In this document: in pieces, positions 11,497 through 36,698 of the stretch
How the letters are laid out: every line of letters starts with the position of its first letter
Numbering within the stretch: position 1 is the stretch's first letter
Assembly: GCF_000723165.1 (NCBI RefSeq)
Contig: NZ_HG322949.1
Location: forward strand, 2,274,448-2,338,447
Reading direction: 5' to 3'
DNA from: Janthinobacterium agaricidamnosum NBRC 102515 = DSM 9628
GTDB taxonomy: Bacteria > Pseudomonadota > Gammaproteobacteria > Burkholderiales > Burkholderiaceae_D
Length of the DNA stretch: 64,000 nt
Program-made: the position numbers and the translations under genes
Notes under the pieces: generated by a model
Told to the model about the DNA's origin: nothing
The model's database searches: none
The model's input: the letters and a program-made list of their open reading frames with translations, nothing else

Positions 11497-12075
11497 TCAG
11501 AAGAATACTGCGGTGCGGCTGATGATGGCGCCGGTATTGCCGTATGGCGCCTTGGCGCGCACCGAGCCGGTATTGGCGACGCCGTCGTCGAGCTTGCTGT
11601 CTAGCTGTTCGGCGAACGATTCGGGCAAGTTGTCGAAGCGGATGCCGTTGCCGGAACGTCCGCCGACTTCGTCGTTGTACAGGTAGACGGCGCCGCCCTG
11701 GGCGCTGGTCATGAATTGCGAGGTGCCGTTGTAGGAGCCGGTGATGAAGCCGCCCAGCGCCAGATGTTGCGGCGCCAGCGTGAATTCGCGCGGCTGGCCG
11801 TCGCCGATCTGGCCGTCGCCATTGCCGTTGCCGGCCGAGTTAGGTACGTGCAAGGTGCCCTGGATATCGTCGCCGGGCAGCGCGCGGAATTTGTCCTGGT
11901 AGGCGTTGACGGCGGCCGTCAGCGAATTCGATTGCTGGATCAGGTTCTTGACCTTGGCGCTGTCGATCAAGCCTTGGCCCTTGAGTACGCCGCCCAGCAG
12001 CAAGCCGATAATCACCAGCACGATGGCGATTTCCACGAGGGTAAAACCGTGCTGGCGGCGGGCGGTGGTTGACAT
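11497..12075 (-). CDS. Type IV prepilin-like (pseudo)pilin, last gene of the left pilus-like cluster
   Basis: The 192-residue protein begins with a short basic leader and the class III signal RRQHGFTLVEIAIVLVIIGLLL: cleavage would follow Gly, leaving Phe1 and Glu5. The lumenal part contains AYQDKFRALPGDDIQG and a Gly/Asn-rich loop, as in MshA/PulG-like major pilins. It follows the TPR-like gene by 72 bases on the same strand, so it is probably transcribed with the cluster or from a local promoter. It is the best candidate for the main subunit of the left system, because the other two pilin-like proteins there are larger and less canonical. A prepilin peptidase must be encoded elsewhere. Confidence 0.85.
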   Translation of the reverse strand: MSTTARRQHGFTLVEIAIVLVIIGLLLGGVLKGQGLIDSAKVKNLIQQSNSLTAAVNAYQDKFRALPGDDIQGTLHVPNSAGNGNGDGQIGDGQPREFTLAPQHLALGGFITGSYNGTSQFMTSAQGGAVYLYNDEVGGRSGNGIRFDNLPESFAEQLDSKLDDGVANTGSVRAKAPYGNTGAIISRTAVFF

Positions 12076-12147
12076 GAGGACTCCTTTTCTTTCAGTAAGT
12101 GTTGCCGTATCAGTCTAATCAAATTGGCTGTTCAATGGAGAAATTTC

Positions 12148-12852
12148 TCATCTTTGCCGCGCGGCAATTTCCTGTAAGCGACGCTCCAGGAATGCCAGTT
12201 CATGCGGATCGGAAATTTGTCCACTGCTGATCATGCCGCCGATCAGGATTTTTGCGCTGTCGAGTTCGTTCATGTCTTCCAGGATGAAAATTTCCAGCTC
12301 GCGCGCCCAGGCCGGCATCTCGGCTGCGTTCGCCTGTTCGCGGATTGCTTGCGCATAGTGGCGCGCCAGCGGCAAGTCGTGCAGGCGGTGCTTGGCGACA
12401 ATGGCGGCGTGGGCCAGCCACGGCCAGCGCCGGTGCGGGTCTTCGGCAAACCGGCGCGCGATAAAATCGAGCATGATGCGGCTGCGCACCGGATCGGGCA
12501 CGGCCGCGTAGATTTCGCTGGCGGCCATCAATGGATATTGCCCGCGCGGATCGAGGTCCAGCGCCGCGCCCAGCCAGTCTCGCAGGCGGTCGTAATCGAG
12601 TTGCGTCCAGCGCAGGCTGATGCCGTCCTGATCTTCAAACCCTTGCAGGTACAACATGGTCGCCTTGGACAAGGCCAGCGGTTCGCCGAGGCTGGCCAGT
12701 TGCAGCATCGCCGGCGCCGGCGCCGGCGGCAATGGCCGGCCGCTGGCGGGCGGCAGCGGATGGGCCAGGTGCCAGCCGCATTGCAGCAGCGCGGCCAGTC
12801 CCAGCGCGGCCAGCACGCTGTTTGGTATATGGGAGAGGGGTTTCAGCATCAT
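12148..12852 (-). CDS. Membrane-anchored TPR-like protein of unknown function in pilus-like cluster
   Basis: I do not recognise this ~234-residue protein. It has an N-terminal membrane anchor (SVLAALGLAALLQCGW), a Pro-rich linker (residues ~35-50) and a helical C-terminal part that looks TPR-like (LAHAAIVAKHRLHDLPLARHYAQAI). Its ATG shares one base with the stop of the ABC permease (TGATG), which implies translational coupling and joint function. It may be a periplasmic scaffold, but nothing in the sequence shows a catalytic site. Confidence 0.7.
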   Translation of the reverse strand: MMLKPLSHIPNSVLAALGLAALLQCGWHLAHPLPPASGRPLPPAPAPAMLQLASLGEPLALSKATMLYLQGFEDQDGISLRWTQLDYDRLRDWLGAALDLDPRGQYPLMAASEIYAAVPDPVRSRIMLDFIARRFAEDPHRRWPWLAHAAIVAKHRLHDLPLARHYAQAIREQANAAEMPAWARELEIFILEDMNELDSAKILIGGMISSGQISDPHELAFLERRLQEIAARQR

Positions 12853-13619
12853 CAAATATTCTTGCGGTACAGGTCGAACAGCGCGGCCGATGTCATCAGC
12901 GCGACGTAGATGACTGTTTGCGACAGGATATCCAGCAAGGCCGCGCTATTGCCGGTGTGATACAGCAGCCATTCGGTGCGCGTAAAACCATCCAGTCTCG
13001 GCAGCAGGAAAGCGAGCGAGTTGATGCCGCTGCTCAAGATTTGTTGTTGCCAGGAATGTGCACCGCTCCCCGCATGGACTAGCAGTTGCAAGCCGCTGAT
13101 GCTGCGCGCCAGCAGATAAAAGCCGGCGCACGCGGCCAGCGCCGGCATCACCTGGCTCAGGCTGAGTACGCACAGCAGGGCAAACGCGGCGACGATCCAC
13201 AGTTCGCACAGCAGCGACATGCTCCACAGTGCGCTTTGGAACAGCGGCGCAAAGAACAGGCTCAGCAGGCCGAACAGCAGCGCGGGAATCAGCGCCAGCA
13301 AGCCGAATCCGCACAGCTTGCCCAGCAGATAGGATGAGCGCGGCATCGGCAGCGCCAGCAACAGTTCCAGTCCCTTGTCGTTGGCTTCGCGCACCATGCT
13401 GGTGACGACAAACGTCGCGATCAAGAACACCGCGGCAAAGCGCAGCAGCGCCGCCAGCAGCGCGGCTTGCATTTGCCGGCTTTCGGTCAGCGCCAATTCA
13501 TTCAAAAAACCGCTGAGGCCGACCGCGATGCAGGCGACCAGCAGGAATAAGCAGGCCAGCCGGTTGCGCAATGCTTCCAGCAAGGTGTAGCGGGCAATTG
13601 TCGGTATCGGATGTATCAT
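12852..13619 (-). CDS. ABC-2 type transporter permease inside the pilus-like cluster
   Basis: The 255-residue integral membrane protein has about six hydrophobic helices (for example ACLFLLVACIAVGLSGFL, LLRFAAVFLIATFVVTSMV and LLALIPALLFGLLSLFFA) and a conserved-looking cytoplasmic segment REANDKGLELLLALPMPRSSY, typical of ABC-2/NatB-like permeases. The ATG at 13619 follows the pseudopilin stop by seven bases. An upstream in-frame start would add 72 low-complexity residues that overlap that gene and is rejected. The likely partner is the ATPase at 23950-24666, the first gene of the same cluster. In Myxococcus xanthus the ABC proteins PilGHI are encoded with pilus genes and needed for pili. 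The cargo is unknown. Confidence 0.75.
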   Translation of the reverse strand: MIHPIPTIARYTLLEALRNRLACLFLLVACIAVGLSGFLNELALTESRQMQAALLAALLRFAAVFLIATFVVTSMVREANDKGLELLLALPMPRSSYLLGKLCGFGLLALIPALLFGLLSLFFAPLFQSALWSMSLLCELWIVAAFALLCVLSLSQVMPALAACAGFYLLARSISGLQLLVHAGSGAHSWQQQILSSGINSLAFLLPRLDGFTRTEWLLYHTGNSAALLDILSQTVIYVALMTSAALFDLYRKNI

Positions 13620-13626
13620 CGATCTA

Positions 13627-14349
13627 CTATAAAGGCAGGCGCTGCGCCGCGACCATGCGGTGGTACAGGATATTCGGCGATAGCCAGACGACGATATCGT
13701 CGAATTCGCCGCCCGGACCGCCATCGCTGGCGGGCCGGCTGATGAAGGTGGTGGCATTGGCGCTATTGTTGCGCTCATCGACATTGGTGCCGGCCGGGGT
13801 GGCGCTGGACACGCCTGAGCCGCTGGTCGCGCCAAAACCGTTTTTGCCGTGCGACATGATCAGCGCCGGAATATCTTTCAAGGCTGTCGCTTGCACCAGC
13901 GCACCGTCGGCGCCACGCGTGACGACGCTGATGTCGCGCGGCGTTTGCAGCGAAAACAAGACGGTGGCATTGCTAAACGCCGGCGTCACGCTGTAGCGCA
14001 ACAGGTGGTCCCAGCTATCGGTTTTTTGCAGGCCGAGCGTCGCCCACGGCAGGAAGCCATCGCGTTTGTCGTTGGCGCAGGCGCCGCCGCGGCGGTCTTC
14101 CAGCCCGTTGCTGGCGGAAATGGCCGGGCAGGGCAGGTAGCCGTAGCGCACCGCAAAGCCGGTCAGCGCTTCTTTCGCTTCGTCCAGCGCCTTGTTGGTA
14201 TCCGCTACCTTGCGCTGTTCGATCTGCACCGCCAGCGGCGTGACCAGGCCGCCTATCATCAAGCCGACGATCAAAAGCACGATGGCGATTTCAAGCAGGC
14301 TGAAGCCGTTTTGTCGTCCCATAACTCTTTTCTCATGATGCTTTCTCAT
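13627..14349 (-). CDS. Type IV prepilin-like minor (pseudo)pilin
   Basis: About 240 residues with a canonical class III signal: MGRQNGFSLLEIAIVLLIVGLMIGG, here preceded by a short MRKHHEKRV leader. Cleavage after Gly leaves Phe1 and Glu5. The C-terminal part shares distinctive segments with the upstream neighbour (GFLPWATLGLQKTDSW, LLRYSVTPAF and the final ILYHRMVAAQ), so the two are paralogues from a tandem duplication. The start at 14349 overlaps the previous stop as ATGA; the inner ATG at 14322 is an alternative. It probably serves as a tip or minor pseudopilin of the left system. Confidence 0.85.
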   Translation of the reverse strand: MRKHHEKRVMGRQNGFSLLEIAIVLLIVGLMIGGLVTPLAVQIEQRKVADTNKALDEAKEALTGFAVRYGYLPCPAISASNGLEDRRGGACANDKRDGFLPWATLGLQKTDSWDHLLRYSVTPAFSNATVLFSLQTPRDISVVTRGADGALVQATALKDIPALIMSHGKNGFGATSGSGVSSATPAGTNVDERNNSANATTFISRPASDGGPGGEFDDIVVWLSPNILYHRMVAAQRLPL

Positions 14350-15074
14350 GGCAAGTTCCGCGCCGCGCGCATGCGTTGGTACAAAGCTGGCAGGGTACTC
14401 CACACCAGCATGTCGTCGAAGGTTCCGCCCGGCTGGGCCGTATCGTCGCTGGCCATGCGGCTGATGAAGCGCACACTGGCTTGCTGGTTGGCCGCTTCAT
14501 CCAGATTGCCTTGCGCCATGTTAGCCTGGGTCATGCCATTGGCCGCAACACCAACGTTATTCCGGCCCTGAGAAAAGACCACGAATGGCAGGCACTGGCT
14601 GCTTAAGCCGCACACAGTGTAGCCGGCAAGCAAGAATAATCGGCCACGCTCGTCGCGGCTGTGCACGGTCTTGGTCGCCACCGCCGACAGCGCGGCAATC
14701 GGCGCCACCGTCATTGCCGGCGTGACGCTGTAGCGCAGCAACTTGCCCCAGCTATCCGCGCCATCGATACCCAACGTGACCCACGGCAAAAAACCGCTGC
14801 AATCGGCTTCGCTGCGGCAGGCGGCGGATTGTTCGCGGCCATCGAGGCTGGATGCGGCCGGACGCGGCAAGCGGCCATTGACGGCCGCAAAACCGAGCAG
14901 CGCTTCGCGCGCTTGCACCAGTGTCGCCAGCGTCTTGCGTTCGCGCTGCGCTTGCTGGGTATTCTTGCCGAAAACGCCGATCAGCAGGCTGGCCGCGCCC
15001 AGGCCGAGCACGGCGACCAGGATCAGCAAGGCCGCACCGCGCTGGTTCGCATGGTGGCGTGCGTCAAGGTTCAT
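14346..15074 (-). CDS. Pilin-like protein lacking the canonical Glu5 (paralogue of next gene)
   Basis: The ~242-residue protein has an N-terminal basic stretch and a hydrophobic helix (NQRGAALLILVAVLGLGAASLLIG), but the residue at pilin position 5 is Leu rather than Glu and no Phe/Met1 follows the glycine. The C-terminal domain clearly matches the adjacent pilin gene (GFLPWVTLGIDGADSW, LLRYSVTPAM, ALYQRMRAAR). This resembles GspK-like tip pseudopilins, which also lack Glu5, although the length is closer to that of a minor pilin. The start at 15074 overlaps the end of the PilP-like gene by 11 bases. It may be processed by the prepilin peptidase or stay as a membrane protein. Confidence 0.7.
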   Translation of the reverse strand: MNLDARHHANQRGAALLILVAVLGLGAASLLIGVFGKNTQQAQRERKTLATLVQAREALLGFAAVNGRLPRPAASSLDGREQSAACRSEADCSGFLPWVTLGIDGADSWGKLLRYSVTPAMTVAPIAALSAVATKTVHSRDERGRLFLLAGYTVCGLSSQCLPFVVFSQGRNNVGVAANGMTQANMAQGNLDEAANQQASVRFISRMASDDTAQPGGTFDDMLVWSTLPALYQRMRAARNLP

Positions 15075-15462
15075 GGTCTTCACTGACGCTGCCGTGGTTC
15101 GGATCAAAACGCTGGCCCGGCTTCAAGATCACCTTGCGGCCATTCGACAATTGCAGCGTCAGCGTCTGGTTTTTATTCAGCGTGTTATTGCCATCGTTTT
15201 GCGGCGCATCGTTCAGCCACGCGGTCGATTTGCCGCTGCTGCGCTTGACCAAGCCATTCAGCAACACCGGTTCGGCTAGCGCTGCGGGCGGCGCAGCGCT
15301 AGCCGGGGCCGCTTCGGTTTGCGGCGGCGGATCGCGTTGCAGGTCGAGCGCGCCGCGTTCTGCCGGCGATAAAAACAAGCGGCCCAGTTGCGGCGCCGCG
15401 GCATGCACCAGCACCGGCATGCTTGCCAGTAATGCTGACATGATCCATCCGTGCTTGTTCAT
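15064..15462 (-). CDS. PilP/MshK/GspC-like periplasmic protein
   Basis: The 132-residue exported protein has a signal peptide (MNKHGWIMSALLASMPVLVHA). A Pro/Ala-rich linker leads to a small C-terminal domain with VLLNGLVKRSSGKSTAWLND and LSNGRKVILKPGQRF, the pattern of MshK/PilP/GspC homology-region domains that link the inner-membrane platform to the secretin. The start at 15462 forms an ATGA overlap with the PilO-like gene. Gene order (PilM/N-like, PilO-like, this gene) matches the pilMNOP arrangement. Homology is inferred from position and motif rather than from strong identity. Confidence 0.65.
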   Translation of the reverse strand: MNKHGWIMSALLASMPVLVHAAAPQLGRLFLSPAERGALDLQRDPPPQTEAAPASAAPPAALAEPVLLNGLVKRSSGKSTAWLNDAPQNDGNNTLNKNQTLTLQLSNGRKVILKPGQRFDPNHGSVSEDHEP

Positions 15463-16100
15463 GGCGCCGCGCCTTGCTGCTCCAGCGTCAGCCAGACCAG
15501 CGTGCAATCGGCCGACAGATGGGGCGCGAGGGCCGTTTGTTCCACCGCGCTGTTGCGTTTTATCGTGCATTGTTGTACTGCGAAATAATTGCGTTGCCGC
15601 AGGTCGTCGAGGAAATGGAATAAATCCATTTCATGTAGCAAGTCCATATGCAGTTCCATTTTGCTGCCGCGTAATTGATAGGGCCCCATAGCGACCCGCG
15701 CATCGGTCTTGAATACTTGCTGTGCGTCGATGTCATAAGTGATTGGCAGCAATTTGCGCTGTTGCTGGCTGCGATGGATCACCTCGATCCAGTCCAGCCG
15801 GTTTTCCGCGCCGAGCAAGTTCTTTTGCTGCAAGGCGACGTAGGCGGGCTGGAAAGTGCGGATGTCCTGTTTTTCATTTTCCACATGATTAAAGCGCTCG
15901 GATGCGGCATTCCGCGCCTGTTGCGCCTGCTTCAGCCTGTCGTCCTGCTGATGCAGATAATGGTTGCTGACGCCAATCGCGGCGATGGCGCCCGGCACGG
16001 CCAGCGCGCAGCACAGCAATGGCCGGCGTATCAGTCCCAGTTCGCCGAGCCACGACGCCTGCGGGCGCGCCGCCGATGTTTTCTTTTTTAAACTGTTCAT
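15459..16100 (-). CDS. PilO-like inner-membrane assembly protein
   Basis: About 213 residues: a short basic cytoplasmic N-terminus, one transmembrane helix (LLCCALAVPGAIAAIGV), a coiled-coil-like segment (residues ~55-85, DDRLKQAQQARNAASERF) and a periplasmic alpha/beta domain containing MELHMDLLHEMDLFHFLDDL, typical of PilO/GspM-like folds. The ATG at 16100 overlaps the previous stop (ATGA). It should form the alignment complex with the PilM/N-like and PilP-like neighbours. No lipid or enzymatic motif is visible. Confidence 0.7.
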   Translation of the reverse strand: MNSLKKKTSAARPQASWLGELGLIRRPLLCCALAVPGAIAAIGVSNHYLHQQDDRLKQAQQARNAASERFNHVENEKQDIRTFQPAYVALQQKNLLGAENRLDWIEVIHRSQQQRKLLPITYDIDAQQVFKTDARVAMGPYQLRGSKMELHMDLLHEMDLFHFLDDLRQRNYFAVQQCTIKRNSAVEQTALAPHLSADCTLVWLTLEQQGAAP

Positions 16101-17638
16101 GGCCGCCACACCAGCTTGAGGATAAATCTGGCCTGGCGATGGTCCGCCGTCGCCGCTGTCTTGCCGGATAATGTGGCGGCGGGCCGCAAATCGAGCGGCA
16201 TGTCGACGATTTCGACGCGCATGGCCGGCAGCCGCGCCAATTGCTGGGTGAATTGATTGATGTTGCCCAGGGCGCTACGGTAATCGTTTTGCGGCAAGTT
16301 CACTTCCGCTTCCAGGCGCAGGCTTTGCGGCGGGCCCAGCGGCATGCCGGCCAGCGCCAACGGCAGCGCTTCGCCTTTCACTTTCAAGAACGGCAGCTCG
16401 GCTTGCCAGTGCAGTTGTATCAGATTGATGGCCGGCGACTGCTCCAGCGCCTGGCTGACCATCACCAGCATCGCTTGCGGGCCGGGCGCCTGGCTGCTGA
16501 TCAGGCGTTCCAGGCTGACCGCGCTTTTCATGTCGCCGGCTTTTGCCAGCACCGGCGGCAGCGACGACATGATGGCTTGATAGCGCTGGTCGTAGGAGGC
16601 CGCTTCGGCTTGCAGCCGGCTGCCGTCGTTCGATACCAGCACGATGCTCCAGATATTCCATGCCAGCCACAATACGCCCACGGTCGCCGCCAGCGCGGTG
16701 CTGGCGTACAGGCCCAGCCGGGCGCGCCATAATTGGTAAAAGCGGGCGCGCGGCCCCAGCGGATAATGGCTGGCCGGCTGTTTCTTGCCCAGTAGCGACA
16801 GCAGCAATGGGTCGGCCAGCAGCGGCGCATTATGCAAGCCCAGCCGTTTGCTGGCGACCGCCATGTCGATGAACTGGTAGGCCAGCTCGACGCCGTCCCG
16901 GCACAGCGCCTGCAAGGCGGCGATGTGCGGCCCCGGCGCCAGTATCGCCGTGTGCAGCACGTCGCCGCGCTCCAGCAAACGGGTGCTGGTGAGGAATTGG
17001 CGGGTCTTTTCGGTTTCCGTTGCAACATTGACAGACAGGCCGTCGCGGTCGATGGCCGGCGTCAGGCGGCTGAAACGCAGCTTGCCTTGCTCAAAATAAC
17101 TTTGGCGCAAGCCGCCCGATTGCTGGGTGATCAGCAATAAATGCTCTTGCCGCAGCTTCAATCTACCGACCAGCGCGGCGCCCAGCAAGCTGCTGGAATA
17201 CAGGCCGGCCAGCGGAATTTTTAAATATTCCAGCGCTTCCAGCCACGGCTGCAACAGCGACGGATTGGTCAGCGCATTGAATAGCACCTGGTTGTCGCGC
17301 CGGCCCGCCGTGTCGCGGCCGAGTATGCTTGCCATGCGGAATGGCGTGTCGCGATACAACTGGGTCAGGCGGCGCGTGATCAATTCCCGGCCTGCCTTGC
17401 CGCCTACATGGGGTAGCAACTGGCGCTGGAAATCTTCCTCGATCAAATCGGTCAGCAAATAGGCTGGCACGGTAGAGCGGCTTTCCAGGTAGGCGGCGAA
17501 CTGGTCCAGGCCATCGGCGTTGGCGGCAAACTGCTGGCCCGGCGACAATTTTCCGTGCCGCCAGTCGTAGGCGCACAGCTGATCGCTGGTCACATAGAAT
17601 AATTGCTGATGGAATAAGGGGAACACAGTCGGCCTCAT
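16097..17638 (-). CDS. PilM/PilN-like fusion (GspL-like) inner-membrane platform protein
   Basis: The 513-residue protein has a long cytoplasmic N-terminal part (about 310 residues) with an actin-like PilM/GspL character (HLLLITQQSGGLRQSYFEQG, IPLAGLYSSSLLGAAL). One transmembrane helix follows (residues ~315-340, ALAATVGVLWLAWNIWSIVLV), then a periplasmic coiled coil and a PilN-like C-terminal domain. In the MSHA locus next door the PilM- and PilN-like parts are separate genes (31285-32229 and 32226-32873), so this is effectively the fused version. The start overlaps the GspF stop by ATGA. Assignment rests on layout and topology, because overall conservation is weak. Confidence 0.65.
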   Translation of the reverse strand: MRPTVFPLFHQQLFYVTSDQLCAYDWRHGKLSPGQQFAANADGLDQFAAYLESRSTVPAYLLTDLIEEDFQRQLLPHVGGKAGRELITRRLTQLYRDTPFRMASILGRDTAGRRDNQVLFNALTNPSLLQPWLEALEYLKIPLAGLYSSSLLGAALVGRLKLRQEHLLLITQQSGGLRQSYFEQGKLRFSRLTPAIDRDGLSVNVATETEKTRQFLTSTRLLERGDVLHTAILAPGPHIAALQALCRDGVELAYQFIDMAVASKRLGLHNAPLLADPLLLSLLGKKQPASHYPLGPRARFYQLWRARLGLYASTALAATVGVLWLAWNIWSIVLVSNDGSRLQAEAASYDQRYQAIMSSLPPVLAKAGDMKSAVSLERLISSQAPGPQAMLVMVSQALEQSPAINLIQLHWQAELPFLKVKGEALPLALAGMPLGPPQSLRLEAEVNLPQNDYRSALGNINQFTQQLARLPAMRVEIVDMPLDLRPAATLSGKTAATADHRQARFILKLVWRP

Positions 17639-18840
17639 GTCTTGATGGTGCTGATCGTGTCGTAAATCGGCCCCAGCACCGACAGCATGATCCAGCCCAG
17701 CAACAGCCCCAGGATCACGGTCATGGCCGGTTCTATCATCGCTTGCACCTTTTCAATCAGTTCCTTGACTTCGCGGTTGTAGAAATAACTGACATTGCGC
17801 AAGGCTGTATCGAGCGAGCCGGTCGCTTCGCCGACTTTCAGCATGCGGATCACCAGCGGCGGAAAGATGCCGGCCTGCTGGAACGCCGCCGTGATGCCTT
17901 GTCCCTCAGAAATATAGGCAGCGGCACGGCGCAAGCCGGCCGCGATCAGGCGGTTGCCGGTGATGCCTTCGGACAAGCGCATGCAGTCGAGGATGGTGAT
18001 GCCGGAGCCATACATCAGGGCAAAAAAGGTGGCGAAACGGGCCAGTATGATTTTGTGCAAGACCGGTCCCAGCAACCAGGCACGTAGCTTGAAAGCATCC
18101 CAGGCATACGCCGCCCGCTCGCTGCGCTTGATCCAGGCCCGCAAGAAAATAGGGGAAATGACCGGCAAAGCCAGCAAGATATACCAGTAATCGATGAAGA
18201 TGTTCGAGATGGCAATCAGTGCGCGGGTGTGGAAAGGCAATTCACCGCCCATGTTCTTGATGAAGGCGGTCAATTGCGGCACCAGGTACATCATCAGGAA
18301 AAACGTCACGGCGGTGACCACCAGCGCGACGATGACCGGGTAGGTGATGATTTTCCTGGTGTGCGCCGCCAGCTCGTCTTGCCACTTCAAGCTTTCCGAC
18401 AAGTTCTTGAACACCTCGGCCAGCTTGCCGCTTTGCTCGCCGGCCATGATCAGGCTGGTGAAGGTGGCGTCGAAAATATCCGGATGCTGGGCCAGCGCGG
18501 CCGACAGGTGCAAGCCGCCTTCTATGCTTTCGATCAAGTCGGTCACCACTTCGCGCAAACGCGGGTGGTCGGTGCTGTCGCGCAAGTCGTCCAGACCTTC
18601 CAGGATCGGCACGCCGGCGCCGGTCAATTGCTCCATATGGAAACAGAAGTTGATCAGGTCGGTCCGGCGTATCACCCGCTTGCCGAGCAAGATCACATGC
18701 TGGCCGGTGATCTTGCAATCGATCAAGTCCAACTGCATGCGGTGCAAGCGCGACTCCAGGTCCGGCACATTGCTGGCGTCCATGCTGCCGGGTATCAGTT
18801 CCCCGCTCGCATCCATGGCGCGGTAGGTATATTGCGGCAT
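17635..18840 (-). CDS. Type II secretion/type IV pilus inner-membrane protein GspF/PilC-like
   Basis: The 401-residue polytopic protein has two repeated GspF domains: the first has MEQLTGAGVPILEGLDDL and LIMAGEQSGKLAEVFKNLSE, the second has FALMYGSGITILDCMRL and MLKVGEATGSLDTALRNVS. It has three hydrophobic segments (near residues 170-190, 220-240 and 375-395). It forms the platform that the assembly ATPase acts on. Its ATG shares one base with the GspE stop (TGATG), a tight translational coupling typical of partner proteins. Length is standard for PilC/MshG. Confidence 0.92.
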   Translation of the reverse strand: MPQYTYRAMDASGELIPGSMDASNVPDLESRLHRMQLDLIDCKITGQHVILLGKRVIRRTDLINFCFHMEQLTGAGVPILEGLDDLRDSTDHPRLREVVTDLIESIEGGLHLSAALAQHPDIFDATFTSLIMAGEQSGKLAEVFKNLSESLKWQDELAAHTRKIITYPVIVALVVTAVTFFLMMYLVPQLTAFIKNMGGELPFHTRALIAISNIFIDYWYILLALPVISPIFLRAWIKRSERAAYAWDAFKLRAWLLGPVLHKIILARFATFFALMYGSGITILDCMRLSEGITGNRLIAAGLRRAAAYISEGQGITAAFQQAGIFPPLVIRMLKVGEATGSLDTALRNVSYFYNREVKELIEKVQAMIEPAMTVILGLLLGWIMLSVLGPIYDTISTIKT

Positions 18841-20549
18841 CAGGCCAGCCTGTCCGTCAAGTCGACCACGCGCGCGACTTCTTCCAGCGTCGTCAAGCCT
18901 TCGCGCACGCGGCGCACACCGTCATCGACCAGCGACTGGAAACCGGCGGCCATGGCGGCATTTTTCAGCTCGCGCGACGAGGCGCGGCGGGCCACCAGTT
19001 CATCGAGCTCCGGCGTCATTTTCAAGATTTCCATGATCGCCAGGCGGCCCTTGTAGCCTTGGTGCTGGCAGCGTTCGCATGCGCCGGCGCGGCAGATCGT
19101 GGCCGCCGCATCGTCGGCATGCAGACCCAGCAGCTTGTGTTCAAGCGCATCGGCTGGGTGTTCCTGTTTGCAATACGGACACAAGCGGCGCACCAGCCGC
19201 TGCGCGATGATGCCGATGATATTGCCGGCCATGATATCGGGCAAGATGCCGATATCGAGCAAGCGCGACACCGAGCCGACCGCCGACGCCGTGTGCAGCG
19301 TCGAATACACCTGGTGTCCCGTCATCGCGGCGGAAAACGCCATGTCGGCGGTTTCCTTGTCGCGGATTTCGCCGACCAGTATCACGTCCGGGTCTTGCCG
19401 CATCATCGAGCGGATGCCGTCGGCAAAACCCATCTTGGCCGATTCATTGACCGAGGTCTGGCGTATCATCGTCATCGGGTACTCGACCGGATCTTCCATC
19501 GTCATGATGTTGATGCTCTCGGTATTGATGTGATTCAAGATCGAATACAAGGTGGTGGTCTTGCCGCTGCCGGTCGGACCGGTCACCAGTATCATGCCGT
19601 CGGGCCGGGCAATCATCAGTTTTAGCAGGTTCAGTTCGCTTTCCGCCAGGCCCAGGCCCTCCAGCGGGACAATGCCTTTTTGGCGGTCCAGCACGCGCAA
19701 GACAAAATTTTCGCCATGCGTGGTCGGTTGCGCCGACGCCCGGAAATCGATTTGTCGGCCAGAAAATTTAATCGAAATGCGACCGTCTTGCGGCGCGCGC
19801 GCTTCGGCGATATTCATATTGCTCATCACCTTCAGCCGCACCGCCATTGCCGGCCAGTACGATTTATGCAGGCTGCGTATCTGCCGCAAGATGCCGTCGA
19901 TGCGGTAGCGTATCCGCAAGAACGATTGTTCCGGCTCGAAATGGATGTCGGAGGCGCTGTTTTGCACCGCGTCGGCCAGCAGCGCATCGATCAGGCGCAC
20001 CATCGGCTGGCTGTACTCATCCGACGTCGAGGCCATGCTGGCGTAATTGACTTCGCCGGTCTCGATTTCATGCAGGATGCCGTCGATCGACAATTCAAAG
20101 CCGTAATACTGGTCGATCGCGCGCGAAATATCGGACTCATTGACCAGCAGCGTCGAAATGGTGATGCCCTTGACCAGCATCGCGCTGATCTGGTCGAGCG
20201 CGACGATATTGCTGGTATCGGCCATTGCCAGGATCAGGTTGTCGTGATCGCGTTCATAGACGATGGGAAACACGCGGTAGCGCTTGGCCACTTCTTTCGG
20301 GATCAGTTTCAAGGCGATGGCGTCGACCACCAGGCTGCCCAGGTCGGCGCTTTGCTGTTTCAGGTTTTCGCTGAGCGCTACCCGCACCGTTGCTTCGGTG
20401 ACAAAGCCGAGCGTAATCAACAGTTTCCCCAATGGTTCGCTGCTGCGTTTTTGCTCGATCAGCGCGATGCGCAGCTGGTCTTCGCTGATCACGCCTTTCT
20501 GGATCAGCAGCTTGCCCAGCGGAAGTTTTGCCTGTTCTGCCATCGCCAT
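18840..20549 (-). CDS. GspE/PilB-like assembly ATPase of the left pilus-like system
   Basis: The 569-residue hexameric ATPase has an N-terminal MshEN/GspE-N region with two repeats of the form PLGKLLIQKGVISEDQL and PLGKLLITLGFVTEATV. The ATPase core has Walker A GPTGSGKTTTLYS, an Asp box SDIHFEPE, Walker B RQDPDVILVGEIRD, a His box TGHQVYSTLHTAS and a C-terminal zinc motif (CPYC...CERC). In c-di-GMP-binding MshEN motifs the repeat begins RLG; here both read PLG, so ligand binding is uncertain. It powers pilus or pseudopilus assembly. It begins immediately after the TPR gene stop and is coupled to gspF. Confidence 0.95.
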   Translation of the reverse strand: MAMAEQAKLPLGKLLIQKGVISEDQLRIALIEQKRSSEPLGKLLITLGFVTEATVRVALSENLKQQSADLGSLVVDAIALKLIPKEVAKRYRVFPIVYERDHDNLILAMADTSNIVALDQISAMLVKGITISTLLVNESDISRAIDQYYGFELSIDGILHEIETGEVNYASMASTSDEYSQPMVRLIDALLADAVQNSASDIHFEPEQSFLRIRYRIDGILRQIRSLHKSYWPAMAVRLKVMSNMNIAEARAPQDGRISIKFSGRQIDFRASAQPTTHGENFVLRVLDRQKGIVPLEGLGLAESELNLLKLMIARPDGMILVTGPTGSGKTTTLYSILNHINTESINIMTMEDPVEYPMTMIRQTSVNESAKMGFADGIRSMMRQDPDVILVGEIRDKETADMAFSAAMTGHQVYSTLHTASAVGSVSRLLDIGILPDIMAGNIIGIIAQRLVRRLCPYCKQEHPADALEHKLLGLHADDAAATICRAGACERCQHQGYKGRLAIMEILKMTPELDELVARRASSRELKNAAMAAGFQSLVDDGVRRVREGLTTLEEVARVVDLTDRLA

Positions 20550-21878
20550 TTATTCCTTGGCCGCTAGTGGAGCGGCGCCGAGTTCGCGCATGCGCCGGGC
20601 CACGGCGTTGCGGTCGAAACCGGCGGCCTTGTTTTGGGCCAACGTCACTGCGCGCTGGTAATAAGTCAGCGCCAATGCGGGCTGGTTCAAGCGGTCCAGC
20701 CCGACCGCCAGGTTGAATGCATAGTCGGGATTGTCGGGCGCGGCGCTGTAAGCGCTGAAAAATTGTTGCTGCGCTTCGGTCCAGCGCTGTTGTTTGGCAT
20801 ACAGATTACCGAGGGCAAACAATACCGGGCCGCTGTCCGGCGCGCGTTGCAACATCGCTTTCAGGCGCGTTTCGCCGTGTGCCGTGTCGCCCTGGCGCAG
20901 GCTGATCAACCCGGCCAGCGCGTCGCCATCGTCGGGATCGAGTTCCAGCAGGCGCAGGTACAGCGATGCCGCCTGCTGTCCCTGTTGCTGGCGCAGCGCG
21001 ACGGCGGCCAGGCCGAGCAGGGCGTCGCGATTATTGGCATCCTGTTGCAGCACGCTGTCGTATAAGGTGCTGGCGCTGGCCATGTCGCCGGCCGTGTAGG
21101 CTTGATAGGCGCTTTGCACGCCGGGAGGGATGGACGGCGCCACGTCGCTGCGTAACACGTGGATCTGGCTATTGTCGGCGGCCACCACTGGCGGCAATGT
21201 TGCGGCTTGTTGCTGAGATTGCTGAGATTGCTGGCGTTGTTGCTGCTGTTGTAGGCGGGCAATTATTTCGGCTTGCGCCGCTATTTGCATCGCTTGCTGT
21301 TGTTCAGTTCGCTCACCCGCTTCGTCATGCGATTGTGCTGGCGGTATTGCCGGCGCGTCGGTGCCTGGCGTCACCAGCAGCGGTCCATTTGCCGCGCCGA
21401 CGGAGCCGGGCGCATCGGTCAATGGCATCGGCACCATCGGCAAGCTGGCGCCGGCGCCCGGACCGGTGCTGGCCAGCCAGAACCAGGCCGCAAAACCGGC
21501 GATGACCAGCAATAAAATAGTGCCCAGCACAGCCAGGCGCAAGGTGGCCGGGTCGATCGTGGTCGCTGCGCGTGCCGCTGCGGGCCGCGCTGCGTGGCGC
21601 GTGGCCGGACGAGAGGGCGGCGCTGGCGGGGGGGAAGGAGGCGCTGAAGCGGGCGGTGCCGGATCGGGCTGGACCGGCTCTCCGCCCAGCGGTTCCAGCC
21701 GCAAGTCGCTGGCCGGCTCGACCGGCGCGGTTGGCGCGGCGCGGGGCGGCAAGCTTTCCTGCGGCGCCAGCGACAACACCTGGTCGTACGCTTCGGATGG
21801 CTTTTCCAGCTCTTCTTCGTGCAAACTGTTTTGTTTGGCGCGCTCGGCTTTCTTGAGCGCCTGCATCAACAAGCTCAT
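20550..21878 (-). CDS. Bitopic TPR protein, MshN-like
   Basis: The 442-residue protein starts with the short cytoplasmic motif MSLLMQALKKAERAKQ, then a Pro/Ala-rich stretch, one transmembrane helix (AVLGTILLLVIAGFAAWFW), a Gln-rich linker (residues ~205-225) and several TPR units in the last ~180 residues (NNRDALLGLAAVALRQQQG, SGPVLFALGNLYAKQQRW). Its architecture parallels mshN at the end of the divergent MSHA locus. It overlaps the secretin stop (ATGA) and directly precedes gspE. A role in secretin assembly or platform-secretin linkage is likely by analogy. Confidence 0.8.
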   Translation of the reverse strand: MSLLMQALKKAERAKQNSLHEEELEKPSEAYDQVLSLAPQESLPPRAAPTAPVEPASDLRLEPLGGEPVQPDPAPPASAPPSPPPAPPSRPATRHAARPAAARAATTIDPATLRLAVLGTILLLVIAGFAAWFWLASTGPGAGASLPMVPMPLTDAPGSVGAANGPLLVTPGTDAPAIPPAQSHDEAGERTEQQQAMQIAAQAEIIARLQQQQQRQQSQQSQQQAATLPPVVAADNSQIHVLRSDVAPSIPPGVQSAYQAYTAGDMASASTLYDSVLQQDANNRDALLGLAAVALRQQQGQQAASLYLRLLELDPDDGDALAGLISLRQGDTAHGETRLKAMLQRAPDSGPVLFALGNLYAKQQRWTEAQQQFFSAYSAAPDNPDYAFNLAVGLDRLNQPALALTYYQRAVTLAQNKAAGFDRNAVARRMRELGAAPLAAKE

Positions 21879-23716
21879 GATACCTCTCCCGGCCGGACCG
21901 GCGCGTTCGATTCCGAATACGGCTCGCTATTGAGCGGCTTTTGGTCCGGTATCAAATAACGGTAATCCTTGTAGTCGCCATCGAGGCTGGCGTCCTTGAC
22001 CACCACCGGCCGCATGAAAATGACCAGCTCGGTCTTGTTGCCGCTTTCATTGCGGTAACTAAACAGGTTGCCGATGAGGGGAAGCTGGCTCAGGCCGGGG
22101 ATGCCGTCCCTGGCGTTGTCGACCGAATCCTGCATCAGGCCACCCATCACGGCGATCTGGCCGCTGCTCACTTTCATGATCGATTCCAGTTCGCGGGCCT
22201 GGATCACCGGCACCTGGCTGGTCACTTTTTCGGCTGCCAGCGCCGGGTTCGGGTCTTGCACGTAACCGACGATACGGGTGATGCTGGGTCGCACGTTCAG
22301 CGTCACTTCATCGTTCTCGGAAATTTGCGGCGTCACGCTCATGACAAAACCGACCGGCACGGTTTCCAGTTTCGATTCGTAGGTGGCCGGGATGGTGGCC
22401 GAGCCATTGGTGCCGAGCACGGCCGGCGTCACCTTGATGGTGAAGAACACATTGTTGTCGACCACTTTCAACATCGCGGTCTGGTTGTTCAGCACGCTGA
22501 TTTTCGGACTCGACAAGACCTTGACCTTGCCGAACGATTCCAGCAATTGAATCGTCGTCGTGATATTGCCCAGCCGCGAAGTCGGATTGGCGTAATCGAG
22601 CACGAACAATCCCGGCGGGGCGCCGGGCGTCACGCCGGACGACAGGGCGGTGTTGCCGACCTGTTTCTGGGTCAGGCTCAGTCCGCCATGCAGGCGCGAC
22701 CAGTTAATGCCTTGCTGATACTCATTACTGAGTTGTACTTCGATGATGGTCGCTTCGATCAAGACCTGGCGCTTGGCGCTGCCCAGCACGATATCGAGGA
22801 ATGCGCGGATGCGTTCATGCTGGCGGCCGGTGGCGCGCACCGCGATCAAGCCGCCCTCGACGTTGACCACCACCGACGATGGCGCGCCTTTATTGGCCAG
22901 TTTCATCAGCGGCTGGCCATTCGGATCGCCAGGCTGCGGTGCTGTTTGCTGGTTGTGCGGCGCGTTGCCCGGCTGTTGGTTAGCTTGTTGGCTTAGTTGC
23001 TGATTCAGTTGCTGATTGAGTTGCGCCAGCGGATCGGTTTGCACATCGTTTTGCGTGGTTTCGCGCAGCAAGTCGCGGATATTGCGTTCCAGGCTGTACC
23101 AGAAATTGTTTTCCGAGCGGTTGACCACCAGCGTCGTCGAGTTATTGTTGCCGCCGTTATTGCCGCCGCTGCTGGCCGCGTTGTTCCCGCCATTATTCGT
23201 GTTGCCGCCGCTGTTCGAGCCGCCGCCGGCGGTCGAAATCTGGGTCGCGATATTGACGCTGCTATTGGTGCTGCGCGCCATGCTGACGTAATCGACCTTG
23301 TAATTGCGCCACACCGGGGTGTCCGGCAAGACCAGCAAGTTCTTGCCGTCGATTTCGTAGCGCATGTCGACTTGCCGGGAAATGCGCGTCAGCAATTGCG
23401 GCAGCGTCTGGTTCAGCGCGTTCAGCGTCACCACGCCTTCGATGCCGGGGTGAATGTCGATATTCATGCCGGCGTCGCGCGCCAGTGCGAACAGCAGCGA
23501 TTGCACCGCCACCTTGTGCACCGTCACGCTATAGGTTTCGACCTTGGCCGCCGGCACCGGCGCCGGCAGCGCGGTACTTTGCCGCACCGGATCGGGAATC
23601 GTGCCGGCCGGCCGCGGCGCAGGCGCCAGATGGCCGGGCGACAGCGGCGTCTGGTGCGAGGCGCAGGCCGACAGCAGCAGGCAGGACAGGCCGGAAATCA
23701 ACAGAGGTTTATTCAT
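21875..23716 (-). CDS. Secretin lipoprotein, MshL/PilQ-like, of the left pilus-like system
   Basis: About 613 residues. A lipoprotein signal (MNKPLLISGLSCLLLSAC) places the acylated Cys near residue 18. An STN/N0-like domain follows (VQSLLFALARDAGMNIDIHPGIEGVVTLNAL), then an Asn/Gly- and Gln-rich low-complexity segment, and then the secretin core (KRQVLIEATIIEVQLSNEYQ, QVPVIQARELESIMKVSSG, GLSQLPLIGNLFSYR). It forms the outer-membrane channel of the system. The ATG at 23716 is chosen because it starts the lipoprotein signal. A 233-base gap with an inverted repeat separates it from the ABC ATPase gene, so it may have its own promoter. Confidence 0.92.
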   Translation of the reverse strand: MNKPLLISGLSCLLLSACASHQTPLSPGHLAPAPRPAGTIPDPVRQSTALPAPVPAAKVETYSVTVHKVAVQSLLFALARDAGMNIDIHPGIEGVVTLNALNQTLPQLLTRISRQVDMRYEIDGKNLLVLPDTPVWRNYKVDYVSMARSTNSSVNIATQISTAGGGSNSGGNTNNGGNNAASSGGNNGGNNNSTTLVVNRSENNFWYSLERNIRDLLRETTQNDVQTDPLAQLNQQLNQQLSQQANQQPGNAPHNQQTAPQPGDPNGQPLMKLANKGAPSSVVVNVEGGLIAVRATGRQHERIRAFLDIVLGSAKRQVLIEATIIEVQLSNEYQQGINWSRLHGGLSLTQKQVGNTALSSGVTPGAPPGLFVLDYANPTSRLGNITTTIQLLESFGKVKVLSSPKISVLNNQTAMLKVVDNNVFFTIKVTPAVLGTNGSATIPATYESKLETVPVGFVMSVTPQISENDEVTLNVRPSITRIVGYVQDPNPALAAEKVTSQVPVIQARELESIMKVSSGQIAVMGGLMQDSVDNARDGIPGLSQLPLIGNLFSYRNESGNKTELVIFMRPVVVKDASLDGDYKDYRYLIPDQKPLNSEPYSESNAPVRPGEVS

Positions 23717-23759
23717 TACGATCCAATCCGGTGTGCAATTTCGTGACGGCCTCATCTAT

Positions 23760-23781
23760 CGTGAAGTTTCTGGACTTCACG
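23760..23781. repeat. Perfect inverted repeat upstream of the secretin gene
   Basis: CGTGAAGT and ACTTCACG (8 bp each) flank a 6-base loop TTCTGG. It lies 44 bases before the secretin start, within the only long gap of the cluster. It has no T-tract for terminating minus-strand transcription, so it could be an operator or a 5'-leader hairpin. Confidence 0.55.
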
Positions 23782-23949
23782 GGGGATTTCAAGACGCCAT
23801 TATTACGTAAAGGATAGATATGTACTTGTTGTAATCCTGTCGTGCAGCAAGTATTTTTTCAAGAAATTTTTTAGCGTTTTCACTGTGCCGACCGACAAAT
23901 AATGATGTGTAGCACTAAGTTTTTCTTGAGGGTATTTTTGACGCGACTT

Positions 23950-24666
23950 TTATGCGATGCATTGCAGGAATGCCTGCTCCAGCGTCGCCGCGCCATAGGC
24001 GGCGCGGCAGCCGGCTGGCGTGCCGGCGTAGCGGATTTTTCCGTCGTGCAGGATCGCCAGGCGGTCGCACAATTCATCGACATCGGCCAGCGCGTGCGAG
24101 GTGAACAAGACGGTGCTGCCGGCTGGGCGCAATTGCAACAACTGCTGCTTCAGCAACGCGCGCGCTTTCGGGTCGAGTCCGCTCATCGGTTCATCCAGCA
24201 CCAGCATCGGCTTATGGGCCAGCAGGCAGGCGGCCAGGCCCAGCTTTTGCGTCATGCCTTTGGAATAGTTGCGCGTCGGGCGGCTGAGTGCGCTTAACTC
24301 CAGGTCGAGTCCGTTTAACACGCGTTCGATCTCGACTTGCTGATAGGAAATACCCTGCAATGTCAGCAGGTAGGACAGGAAATCCTTGCCGGTCAAATAG
24401 TAGGGCGGCATGAAGCGCTCAGGCAAGAAAGTCAGTGGCGCGCGCGCGCCTGGCGCGCGGTGCGGCTGGCCGAAGATCTCGATGCTGCCGCCATCGAGCG
24501 CGCAAAAATCGAACAGACATTTGATCAGGCTGGTCTTGCCGGCGCCGTTGATGCCGACCAGGCCAAAGAATTCGCCGCGCTGGATGTCCAGGTCGACGCC
24601 TTGCAAGACCGGCTTGGCCGCATAACGTTGGGCGACAGCGCGGAAGCGGATTGCGGCTACGGTCAT
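23950..24666 (-). CDS. ABC transporter ATPase heading the left pilus-like cluster
   Basis: The 238-residue nucleotide-binding subunit has Walker A GINGAGKTSLIK, the signature NYSKGMTQKLGLA, Walker B MLVLDEPMSGLD and the switch histidine TSHALAD. The type is that of ABC-2 exporters (CcmA/NatA-like). The ATG at 24666 gives the standard N-terminus MTVAAIRFRAVAQRY; an upstream extension into the promoter region is rejected. The likely permease is encoded ten genes downstream at 12852-13619. The pair brackets the pilus-like machinery, recalling PilH/PilI of Myxococcus, but the cargo is unknown. Confidence 0.9.
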   Translation of the reverse strand: MTVAAIRFRAVAQRYAAKPVLQGVDLDIQRGEFFGLVGINGAGKTSLIKCLFDFCALDGGSIEIFGQPHRAPGARAPLTFLPERFMPPYYLTGKDFLSYLLTLQGISYQQVEIERVLNGLDLELSALSRPTRNYSKGMTQKLGLAACLLAHKPMLVLDEPMSGLDPKARALLKQQLLQLRPAGSTVLFTSHALADVDELCDRLAILHDGKIRYAGTPAGCRAAYGAATLEQAFLQCIA

Positions 24667-24843: not shown

Positions 24844-26547
24844 ATGGCAAGGCCAGAAAAAGTCCGGCTGGGGGAAATCTTAGTACAGCAGAATTTGCTT
24901 TCGGAAGAACAGCTGGGTTTGGCGTTGACGGAGCAAAGACGCACCGGCCGCAAGCTGGGCCGCGTGTTTGTCGAAAACCGGTATGTGACGGAAGAACAGA
25001 TTTCGGGCGCGCTGGCCAAGCAGCTCGACATTCCCTATATTAATCTGAAGTTTTTCAATATCAATGCCGAACTGGTGCGGTTGCTGCCGGAAACCCAGGC
25101 GCGGCGTTTTCGCGCGCTGGTGCTGGAAGACCGGCGCGGCACCTTGCTGGTCGGCATGTCCGATCCGACCGACCTGTTTGCCTACGATGAAATCGCGCGG
25201 CTGGTCAAGCGCGGCATCGAATTGGCGGTGGTCAATGAAACCGAAGTGCTGCAAGCGATCGACCGGATTTACCGCCGCACCGAAGACATCACCGAGCTGA
25301 CCCGCGAGCTGGAACAGGACCTGGGCGACGTGTCGGTCGATTTCGGCGCGCTGGCCGCCAATCCGGGACTGGAAGAGGCGCCCATCGTCAAGCTGCTGCA
25401 ATCGGTGTTCGACGATGCGACCCAGGTGCGCGCGTCGGACATCCATATCGAGCCGCAGGAAGGGCGCCTGCAGATCCGTTTCCGCATCGATGGCGTGCTG
25501 CACCTGCAAACCGAGGCCGACATCAAGATCGCGGCGTCGCTGGCGCTGCGGCTGAAACTGATGTCGGACCTGGATATTTCCGAAAAACGCTTGCCGCAGG
25601 ATGGCCGCTTTGCGATCCGCGTCAAGCACCAGCGTATCGACGTGCGGATCTCGACCATGCCGACCCAGCATGGCGAATCGGTGGTGATGCGGCTGCTGAA
25701 CCAGGGCGGCACCACGCTGCGGCTCGACGCGATCGGCATGCCGCCGGCGCTGGTGGCGAAATTCCGCGCCATCGTGCAGCGGCCGAACGGCCTGGTGCTG
25801 GTCACCGGGCCGACCGGCAGCGGCAAGACCACCACCTTGTATTGCGCGCTGGCGGAACTCAATGCGGTCGAAAAGAAATTGATCACGGTTGAAGATCCGG
25901 TCGAGTACCGCTTGCCCGGCATTAATCAGGTGCAAGTCAACGACAAGATCGAGCTGAATTTCGCGCGCGTGCTGCGTTCGGCGTTGCGGCAAGATCCGGA
26001 CATCGTGCTGGTCGGCGAGATGCGTGACCAGGAAACCGCGCAAATCGGCTTGCGCGCCGCGATGACGGGCCACCTGGTGCTGTCGACGCTGCATACCAAC
26101 GACGCCATCAGCACGCCGCTGCGGCTGATGGACATGGGCGTGCCGCGCTACATGGTCGGCAGTTCGCTGCAGGCGGTGCTGGCGCAGCGGCTGGTGCGGG
26201 TGATTTGCGAAAGCTGCAGCACGCCGTACCAGCCGGCGCCGAATGAATATGAATGGCTGCGCCTGGAATTGGGCCAGCTGGTCGAGAAGACCCGCTATTT
26301 CCATGGCAAGGGCTGTTCGCATTGCAATGGCATGGGTTATCGGGGCCGCACCGGCGTGTATGAGTTGCTGGAAATGACGCGCCCGGTGGTGGACGCGGCG
26401 AATCACCCCGACCCGGCCCATTTCCTGAAGGTGGCGGCGGCCGAGATGGCGGGCGAAACCTTGCGCCGCCACGCGGTGCAACTGGTGGTGCAGGGCCGCA
26501 CCACGGTATCTGAAGCGATGCGCATCAGTCACCAGATCGAGGATTGA
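24844..26547 (+). CDS. mshE: MSHA pilus assembly ATPase MshE
   Basis: The 567-residue ATPase has an N-terminal MshEN region with RLGEILVQQNLLSEEQLGLAL and KLGRVFVENRYVTEEQI. The first repeat keeps the RLG start seen in c-di-GMP-binding MshEN domains, so pilus assembly may respond to c-di-GMP. The core has GPTGSGKTTTLYC (Walker A), SDIHIEPQ (Asp box), RQDPDIVLVGEMRD (Walker B), TGHLVLSTLHTND (His box) and a CESC...CSHC zinc site. It starts with ATG behind GAGGAG and is followed one base later by mshG. In Vibrio the order differs (mshE lies after mshN), so the locus is rearranged. Confidence 0.95.
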   Translation: MARPEKVRLGEILVQQNLLSEEQLGLALTEQRRTGRKLGRVFVENRYVTEEQISGALAKQLDIPYINLKFFNINAELVRLLPETQARRFRALVLEDRRGTLLVGMSDPTDLFAYDEIARLVKRGIELAVVNETEVLQAIDRIYRRTEDITELTRELEQDLGDVSVDFGALAANPGLEEAPIVKLLQSVFDDATQVRASDIHIEPQEGRLQIRFRIDGVLHLQTEADIKIAASLALRLKLMSDLDISEKRLPQDGRFAIRVKHQRIDVRISTMPTQHGESVVMRLLNQGGTTLRLDAIGMPPALVAKFRAIVQRPNGLVLVTGPTGSGKTTTLYCALAELNAVEKKLITVEDPVEYRLPGINQVQVNDKIELNFARVLRSALRQDPDIVLVGEMRDQETAQIGLRAAMTGHLVLSTLHTNDAISTPLRLMDMGVPRYMVGSSLQAVLAQRLVRVICESCSTPYQPAPNEYEWLRLELGQLVEKTRYFHGKGCSHCNGMGYRGRTGVYELLEMTRPVVDAANHPDPAHFLKVAAAEMAGETLRRHAVQLVVQGRTTVSEAMRISHQIED

Positions 26548-26548
26548 C

Positions 26549-27781: not shown

Positions 27782-28122
27782 CATTGGCGGTTTTTGCTTT
27801 GCCGGCTCGGATTTTCTCTTGGAAACTAATGATCGTATGGTTAAAAGTATTGCTCTAGAGCATATCCTTTTTGACAGAAATCATGGAAAATTGTTATATG
27901 TATTAGGTTATGGCAATACTTTTCGAGGAGGAGGTTCCGGCTTGCTGAAATTCAAGGTAAGCTTGTCAAATGTGCCCGATACACCGGGTCCATCCTTGAA
28001 TTCGACTGATGCACACGATGGCATGCTGGTTCAGCTTGGGGAGTAGCTTGTTGTTATTAATGAAGGTATAAACAGGGTTCTGTTTTGCCAGTGAAATGTT
28101 TACATGATTTTTGGAGATCCGC
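27782..28122 (+). other. Low-GC gap between mshG and the mshA-like gene; possible 69-residue reading frame 27837-28046
   Basis: The 341 bases are clearly AT-richer than their neighbours. They probably contain the promoter and 5' leader of the major pilin gene, which usually needs its own strong expression. An open frame from ATG 27837 to 28046 encodes 69 residues (MVKSIALEHILFDRNHGKL, later GLLKFKVSLSNVPDT). A purine-rich GAGGAGGAGG at about 27926-27935 could serve an internal TTG. No homology or signal was recognised, so I do not call it a gene. Confidence 0.35.
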
Positions 28123-28611: not shown

Positions 28612-28653
28612 TGGTTATGACGGTTAAACCACGTCAAACCTAGTTGAATTGAG

Positions 28654-31142: not shown

Positions 31143-31284
31143 TGGCAGGAATTTGTGTATTTTATGGAAAAACTGTTATCAATATTGCCTTTTTTAAACC
31201 CGTAGTGCAGGCGATGAATTAAAATTGATCCAGTGCATTATTCTGGCCATAAGTAGTTGTAGCATTCTTTTTTGGATTGGTCGC

Positions 31285-36688: not shown

Positions 36689-36698
36689 GTTTGACGGT

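Follow-up and report, generated by a model that had tools for sequence, protein, structure and literature searches.

The described systems with which the locus reported here can be compared are the mannose-sensitive hemagglutinin (MSHA) pilus, the type II secretion system (T2SS), the NosFY pair of NosDFY, and PilGHI of Myxococcus xanthus. Denise et al. (2019, PMC6668835) list mshA, mshE, mshG, mshL and mshM as mandatory in their MSH model, and the main text of that paper does not use the term 'ABC transporter' (ABC, ATP-binding cassette). For M. xanthus, another paper (PMC6060248) treats pilGHI among the type IVa pilus (T4aP) cluster genes and says that supporting experimental data are not available. 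Here we describe a cluster of 13 minus-strand genes in Janthinobacterium agaricidamnosum NBRC 102515 = DSM 9628, whose 5.95 Mb genome is a single contig (NZ_HG322949.1). The cluster lies within the 64-kb stretch of DNA that was analyzed as a whole (hereafter the window), and it encodes a secretin-type type IV filament machine together with a split ABC-2 transporter. We conclude that this is a type IV filament lineage in its own right, allied to MSHA but distinct from it, and very probably a distinct machine with a dedicated, optional module made up of the ABC genes and a tetratricopeptide repeat (TPR)-like protein. The preliminary description of this DNA, made from its letters alone, could match the layout to no named system, and the literature that we searched likewise yielded no description of the machine or of a matching layout. 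The machine is apparently unnamed and undescribed.

The genes are listed below in their order of transcription, in which the ATPase gene of the split transporter is first and its permease gene is third from last. Coordinates are those of the window.

23950..24666, minus strand: ABC ATPase (NosF/ABCA-like nucleotide-binding subunit), first gene; ABC_tran E 5e-20
23717..23949, no strand: AT-rich gap between ATPase and secretin; GC 0.39 over 23756-23949
21875..23716 (likely start 23716; open reading frame (ORF) open from 23755), minus strand: secretin, MshL-like; Secretin E 1.4e-38
20550..21878, minus strand: MshN/GspB-like TPR protein; TPR families
18840..20549, minus strand: assembly ATPase, GspE/MshE-like, with N-terminal MshEN domain of cyclic di-GMP (c-di-GMP) type; T2SSE E 1e-127
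17635..18840, minus strand: platform protein GspF; T2SSF E 1.6e-50
16097..17638, minus strand: putative PilM/PilN (GspL)-like protein, 513 aa; position and weak GspL_C in homologues
15459..16100, minus strand: putative PilO/GspM-like protein; position and weak T2SSM in homologues
15064..15462, minus strand: putative PilP-like protein; position, and conserved in relatives by tblastn
14346..15074, minus strand: X1, pilin-like minor component, ~242 aa; no recognized N-methylation motif
13627..14349, minus strand: X2, minor pilin-like protein; N_methyl E 9e-5
12852..13619, minus strand: ABC-2 permease, NosY-like fold; ABC2_membrane_2/3
12148..12852, minus strand: orphan protein, 234 aa, predicted membrane helix and TPR-like domain; AlphaFold2 (AF2) model
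11497..12075, minus strand: pilin, 192 residues, probably major; N_methyl E 3e-8
24844..37739, plus strand: complete MSHA locus, head to head with the cluster; context outside the system

The genes named in the preliminary description were found at or near the places it had given them, with the ATPase first and the permease between X2 and the TPR-like gene, and its count of twelve is corrected to 13. It had also called the genes tightly linked. This holds from the secretin through the TPR-like gene, where neighbors overlap or sit at most about 10 bp apart, and fails for the ABC ATPase gene, which, because the AT-rich gap separates it from the secretin, may be a transcription unit of its own. 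In several relatives an ExeA/GspA-like AAA gene occupies this gap; no such (MshM-like) gene is present in the window's cluster. A PEP-CTERM protein gene lies near the cluster (window 8601-9239).

A filament machine allied to MSHA

We placed the cluster GspE in a GspE-family tree of 53 rows, including reference rows from its own genome. The cluster GspE and its relatives form their own clade (100/100), and four MshE rows form a separate clade (100/100), outside of which the cluster GspE falls. With one further row of unsure place on a long branch (L215), these two clades make up a 93/93 group, apart from the PilB and T2SS GspE clades. This grouping points to a lineage allied to MSHA, in which a sister relation to MshE is likely, though not settled. 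The cluster GspE also fails the T2SS GspE equivalog TIGR02533 (511.1 vs 630.25 bits), which another GspE of the genome passes, and the PilB equivalog TIGR02538 (525 vs 675.65 bits). It had been proposed that the cluster, lying head to head with a complete MSHA locus, is a separate machine and does not supply that locus's missing parts. We confirm both points: with the GspE clade near but outside MshE and the MSHA locus complete, leftover MSHA parts are ruled out. Three more GspE-like ATPases of the same genome (L006, L007 and L008) fall short of the PilB, GspE and TfpB cut-offs alike; in the tree they and a row from another family (L214) make up a single 100/100 clade.

Family models back the secretin, the MshN/GspB-like TPR protein, GspE, GspF, the ABC ATPase and the ABC-2 permease. 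The secretin passed the MshL model TIGR02519 narrowly, by 4 bits (254 bits, cut-off 250.2), and a lipobox-like LLSAC can be read near its N terminus. The earlier labels for the secretin, the MshN-like protein, GspE and GspF thus agree with family models, and those for the putative PilM/N-, PilO- and PilP-like proteins come mainly from gene order and from weak family matches of homologues. The three window proteins gave no relevant Pfam match, and the PilP-like protein gave no family match in Pfam and NCBIfam scans; GspL_C was found weakly in 4 of 15 PilM/N-like homologues (best E 4.4e-4) and T2SSM weakly in 2 of 10 PilO-like homologues (best E 0.0035). Three pilin-like proteins had been proposed, and two of them, X2 and the pilin, have the N-methylation motif, which Pfam did not detect in X1. 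The ORF at the X1 position is ~400 to 575 aa long in several other families, vs ~242 aa in the window, and the two long ones that were scanned (L042:10130-11467 and L044:8306-9904) gave no Pfam or NCBIfam match. No prepilin peptidase is encoded in the locus; both Peptidase_A24 matches of the genome fall outside the window.

The GspE scores 63.5 bits against the MshEN domain model NF053729 (cut-off 38). As defined by Wang et al. (2016, PMC5013675), the strict MshEN motif for c-di-GMP consists of two 24-residue motifs RLG..Q. This strict motif is broken in the window GspE, where P replaces R in each half and N replaces the final Q; the relaxed motif given in the same source fits by eye, and several distant relatives have an intact motif I. 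The presence of the domain suggests that GspE could bind c-di-GMP and that the machine may be under c-di-GMP control.

Co-occurrence of the ABC-TPR module with the machine

We searched a class sample of 321 genomes for the TPR-like protein, the permease and this type of GspE, taking a permease match as strong at E<1e-30 and a GspE as being of this type at E<1e-150. The machine proved to be widespread, with this GspE type present in 63 genomes. The TPR-like protein was found in 46, and the permease in 58 at E<=1e-5, comprising 47 strong and 11 weak matches (best 2.7e-12) with no values between. The 11 weak-permease genomes were dropped from the counts; the three such loci that were examined (L257-L259) have no GspE, secretin or TPR-like match. 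All 46 genomes with the TPR-like protein also have a strong permease. Of the 47 TPR-like copies, 46 lie at most 300 bp from the permease and the remaining one is on a different contig, and a single genome (G383) was recorded with a permease and no TPR-like protein. The permease and this GspE type occur together in 45 genomes, the permease alone in 2, the GspE alone in 18, and neither in 256 (Fisher 1.2e-37, not corrected for kinship). With 45 of the 47 strong-permease genomes holding this GspE type, the proposal that the ABC genes belong with the pilus genes is upheld. The two permease-alone genomes are 93% (G127) and 64% (G299) complete, and the ABC-TPR module is hardly ever found without the pilus machine.

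Among 17 permease loci from the class sample, 10 are linked to the core genes, 6 are unlinked and 1 is undecided. One GspE of this type (55-62% identity) was found elsewhere in 12 of 12 genomes, namely the 6 with an unlinked module and 6 more, and the next GspE-type matches in these genomes reach at most 48% identity over part of the length. In two genomes of 1.5-1.6 Mb (G207 and G324), this GspE is the only match besides one short, PilT-sized match (L254, L286, L287), and in G207 the module is unlinked from the core. Such unlinked yet co-retained modules are stronger evidence of a functional link than shared operons. The preliminary description had named ABC genes usually found apart from the pilus genes as an outcome that would tell against it; this is not what was found, despite some unlinked cases (6 of the 17 loci, and genome G069).

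A single-sequence permease search across 100 relatives found the permease in 49. In 18 of the first 20 stretches around it, this GspE type and other core genes adjoin. Stretch L046 stops where its contig ends, beyond the X1/X2 genes. In stretch L045, from G069, the kinase, permease, TPR-like protein and pilin are encoded together; the ORFs upstream of them are unrelated, and the GspE is on another contig. In the arrangement that recurs, the ABC ATPase comes first, followed by (response regulator and sigma-54 activator), ExeA/GspA-like AAA protein, secretin, TPR protein, GspE, GspF, PilM/N, PilO, PilP, X1, X2, (histidine kinase, encoded on the opposite strand), permease, TPR-like protein, (regulator-kinase pair, in some lineages), pilin. 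The bracketed regulator and kinase genes and the AAA gene are missing from some genomes, and in several genomes from outside the taxonomic order of the window the ATPase gene comes after the pilin instead. Among named loci (the best 80 of 162), all 79 that could be tested have the permease no more than 2.2 kb upstream of the TPR-like gene, 60 of 61 testable loci have one or more core machine genes upstream (the exception being L148), and a pilin match lies downstream in 75 of 80. Named holders are not confined to Oxalobacteraceae, with records of Sulfuricella, Gallionellaceae, Thiogranum and Chromatiales among them; the closest named permease and TPR-like homologues, among the matches listed, are mostly from Duganella, Janthinobacterium and other Oxalobacteraceae. 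The layout goes beyond chance, since genomes from other families have this gene order as well.

These data bear on the explanation that the cluster is a plain MSHA paralogue or a T2SS variant into which ABC genes were inserted by chance. The narrow pass of the MshL model would fit such an origin, but the association in many families, the unlinked yet co-occurring cases and the position of the GspE clade apart from MshE make it highly improbable.

Three metagenome-assembled records titled Bordetella parapertussis (L169, L180 and L187) hold parts of the cluster, and that label is probably wrong. In clusters of relatives (L039 and L051), the regulators match the XrtA/PEP-CTERM kinase PrsK and response-regulator models below the cut-off, and the AAA protein matches the XrtA-associated ATPase model, also below the cut-off; NorR gives the L051 activator a higher score.

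The ABC genes are not a part that the machine requires in every genome, given that 18 of the 63 class genomes and 12 of 61 relatives with the machine have no strong permease match. In 9 of the 18 class genomes, the cluster has X2 beside the pilin and no permease or TPR-like match (one of these, L280, has a kinase between X2 and the pilin); in the other 9, contig ends interrupt, there is no pilin match, or the cluster is too diverged to judge. Across the 100 relatives, GspE is present in 61, GspE and permease in 47, and GspE alone in 14; the 2 relatives with a permease and no GspE have incomplete genomes (88% and 68%). A profile search of the 14 GspE-alone relatives gave no strong permease and two weak matches (G063 and G079). 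Setting aside two relatives whose cluster is interrupted by a contig end (G028 and G059) leaves the 12 given above, these two of the 61 being undecided for the permease. Some clusters lack the permease and the TPR-like gene jointly, and mapping the ABC label on a tree of 47 GspE rows requires 6 changes, at least 3 of which are forced by well-supported branches. The ABC-TPR module is an optional addition, present in most sampled machine-bearing genomes. Since clusters with and without the module occur naturally, the role of ABC transporters in pilus clusters becomes testable.

The regulatory genes raise the question of whether the module is sensory, with the ABC pair and the TPR-like protein informing a histidine kinase of how the envelope or filament stands; this kinase together with a sigma-54 type regulator would tune the pilus genes. 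An HK2-type kinase does adjoin the permease, between it and X2, in many examined loci, and a sigma-54 activator and response regulator occur in some of the same clusters. However, in 5 of the 12 permease-less relatives (L303, L304, L306, L307 and L310) the kinase is kept where the permease and TPR-like gene are absent, which places it outside the module, and the window's cluster has the ABC module and no kinase match. Because each occurs without the other, the kinase and the ABC module do not travel together, and we regard a sensory role as improbable.

Candidate function of the module

In 13 aligned ATPase sequences, the motifs that we take to be Walker A and B, the SKGM signature and the H-loop are kept or nearly so, and the best PDB profile matches of the ATPase are ABCA and NosF. 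For the AF2 model of the permease (predicted local distance difference test (pLDDT) 87.4), NosDFY permease chains are the nearest solved structures, at the top of both the Foldseek and the VIA-align results. As judged from these profile and model comparisons, the ATPase and permease, which would form a complex, resemble NosFY, an ABC motor that serves in the assembly of nitrous-oxide reductase. No NosD beta-helix domain was found by Pfam in the 13 cluster proteins, the rest of the genome not having been searched. The 234-residue protein gave no relevant Pfam or NCBIfam match, and its TPR-like fold is a prediction of its AF2 model (pLDDT 87.5), which also has a predicted membrane helix. The TPR-like domain would lie on the periplasmic side.

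Given these resemblances, we propose the following working model. GspE and GspF would assemble a filament from the 192-residue pilin with minor pilins of the X1/X2 type, and the filament would be guided to the MshL-like secretin and might leave the cell. The three-gene module of ABC ATPase, NosY-like permease and membrane-anchored TPR-like protein would be an ATP-driven motor, in which ATP hydrolysis would move the periplasmic TPR-like domain, as NosFY acts for its partner NosD. NosFY is a mechanical or cofactor-handling motor. The moved domain might then remodel or load a part of the machine, such as the minor-pilin tip, the alignment proteins or the secretin. As a whole, a distinct filament machine with an ABC module acting as an ATP-driven motor is the best explanation that we can offer, and we give it about an even chance. 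The mechanical reading of the module by itself, drawn by analogy, is tentative. The fullest version, an MSHA-allied filament class in which a NosFY-like motor acts through its dedicated TPR-like protein from the periplasmic side, is possible but rather unlikely; if true, a type IV filament would have a second ATP motor, of ABC type, in addition to the GspE/PilT motors in the cytoplasm.

Exporters share the ABC-2 fold of the permease. In a true exporter, the ABC pair would move a lipid, sugar or peptide across the inner membrane, the TPR-like protein would receive it, and the filament machine would push the cargo through the secretin; the conserved ABC motifs and an operon that also holds a secretin gene and pseudopilin-like genes fit this as well. 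However, no recurring biosynthesis gene was seen in locus maps that show query-matching genes, with gap ORFs read in some loci, and the closest permease structures are NosDFY permease chains. The suggestion of lipid, sugar or peptide export in the preliminary description found no evidence, and we consider an exporter doubtful. We favor a motor acting through the TPR-like protein over a plain exporter, and hence a function that would be mechanical rather than one of transport.

Conservation of the pilin offers a further view of the filament. We made all identity comparisons with the same eight congeneric genomes, taking the pilin over its best matched stretch. The cluster pilin has the highest within-genus identity of the cluster proteins, with a mean of 92.2% (89.6-93.6); the means are 88.6% for GspE, 63.2% for the permease, 60.6% for the TPR-like protein, and 56.2% for the MSHA major pilin (window 28111-28611). 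The uncorrected ratio of nonsynonymous to synonymous differences is 0.145 for the cluster pilin and 0.44 for the MSHA pilin, and the synonymous differences are 0.38 (cluster pilin), 0.44 (GspE), 0.42 (MshE) and 0.59 (MSHA pilin). No close second copy of the cluster pilin is present in the genome, and in other families most pilin matches show 32-57% identity within the matched stretch. Variation would be expected in an adhesive pilin that is freely exposed. The cluster pilin may be hidden or bound to one unchanging partner, and its constraint hints at a filament surface free of the usual diversifying pressure.

Comparison with known systems

Like the PilGHI system as treated in PMC6060248, the cluster has ABC-type genes among type IV pilus genes, and the module could be a counterpart of PilGHI, an ABC transporter for pilin export or pilus assembly on an MSHA-allied machine. 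However, the machine in M. xanthus is a T4aP, and the one here is not, as judged by its PilB score and separate GspE clade; it is MSHA-allied, and its ATPase and permease genes lie apart. We consider such a counterpart unlikely.

With NosFY of NosDFY, the module shares the permease fold, the best structural matches and the ATPase similarity. It differs in that the cluster has no NosD-like partner, the candidate partner is TPR-like, and the companions are filament genes. With the T2SS, the cluster shares a secretin, GspE, GspF, the pseudopilin-like X1 and X2 and, in relatives, the ExeA/GspA-like AAA protein, whereas its GspE fails the GspE equivalog model and the genome encodes a separate GspE that passes it.

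The MSHA pilus, which represents the Vibrio-type MSH class within the type IV filament superfamily, shares with the cluster an MshL-type secretin, an MshE-like ATPase with MshEN, a GspF-like platform protein, an MshN-like TPR protein, and a locus without a prepilin peptidase. Compared by gene list with the mandatory genes of the MSH model, the cluster has equivalents of E, G and L, and the MshM-like AAA protein is found in several relatives and not in the window's cluster. The PilM/N-like protein of the cluster has no detectable similarity to the window's MshI (a profile of 15 homologues against this MshI alone gave a probability of 0.5%, no match). The cluster differs from MSHA in its separate GspE clade and in its ABC-TPR module. 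The machine thus adds a branch beside MSHA to the type IV filament superfamily.

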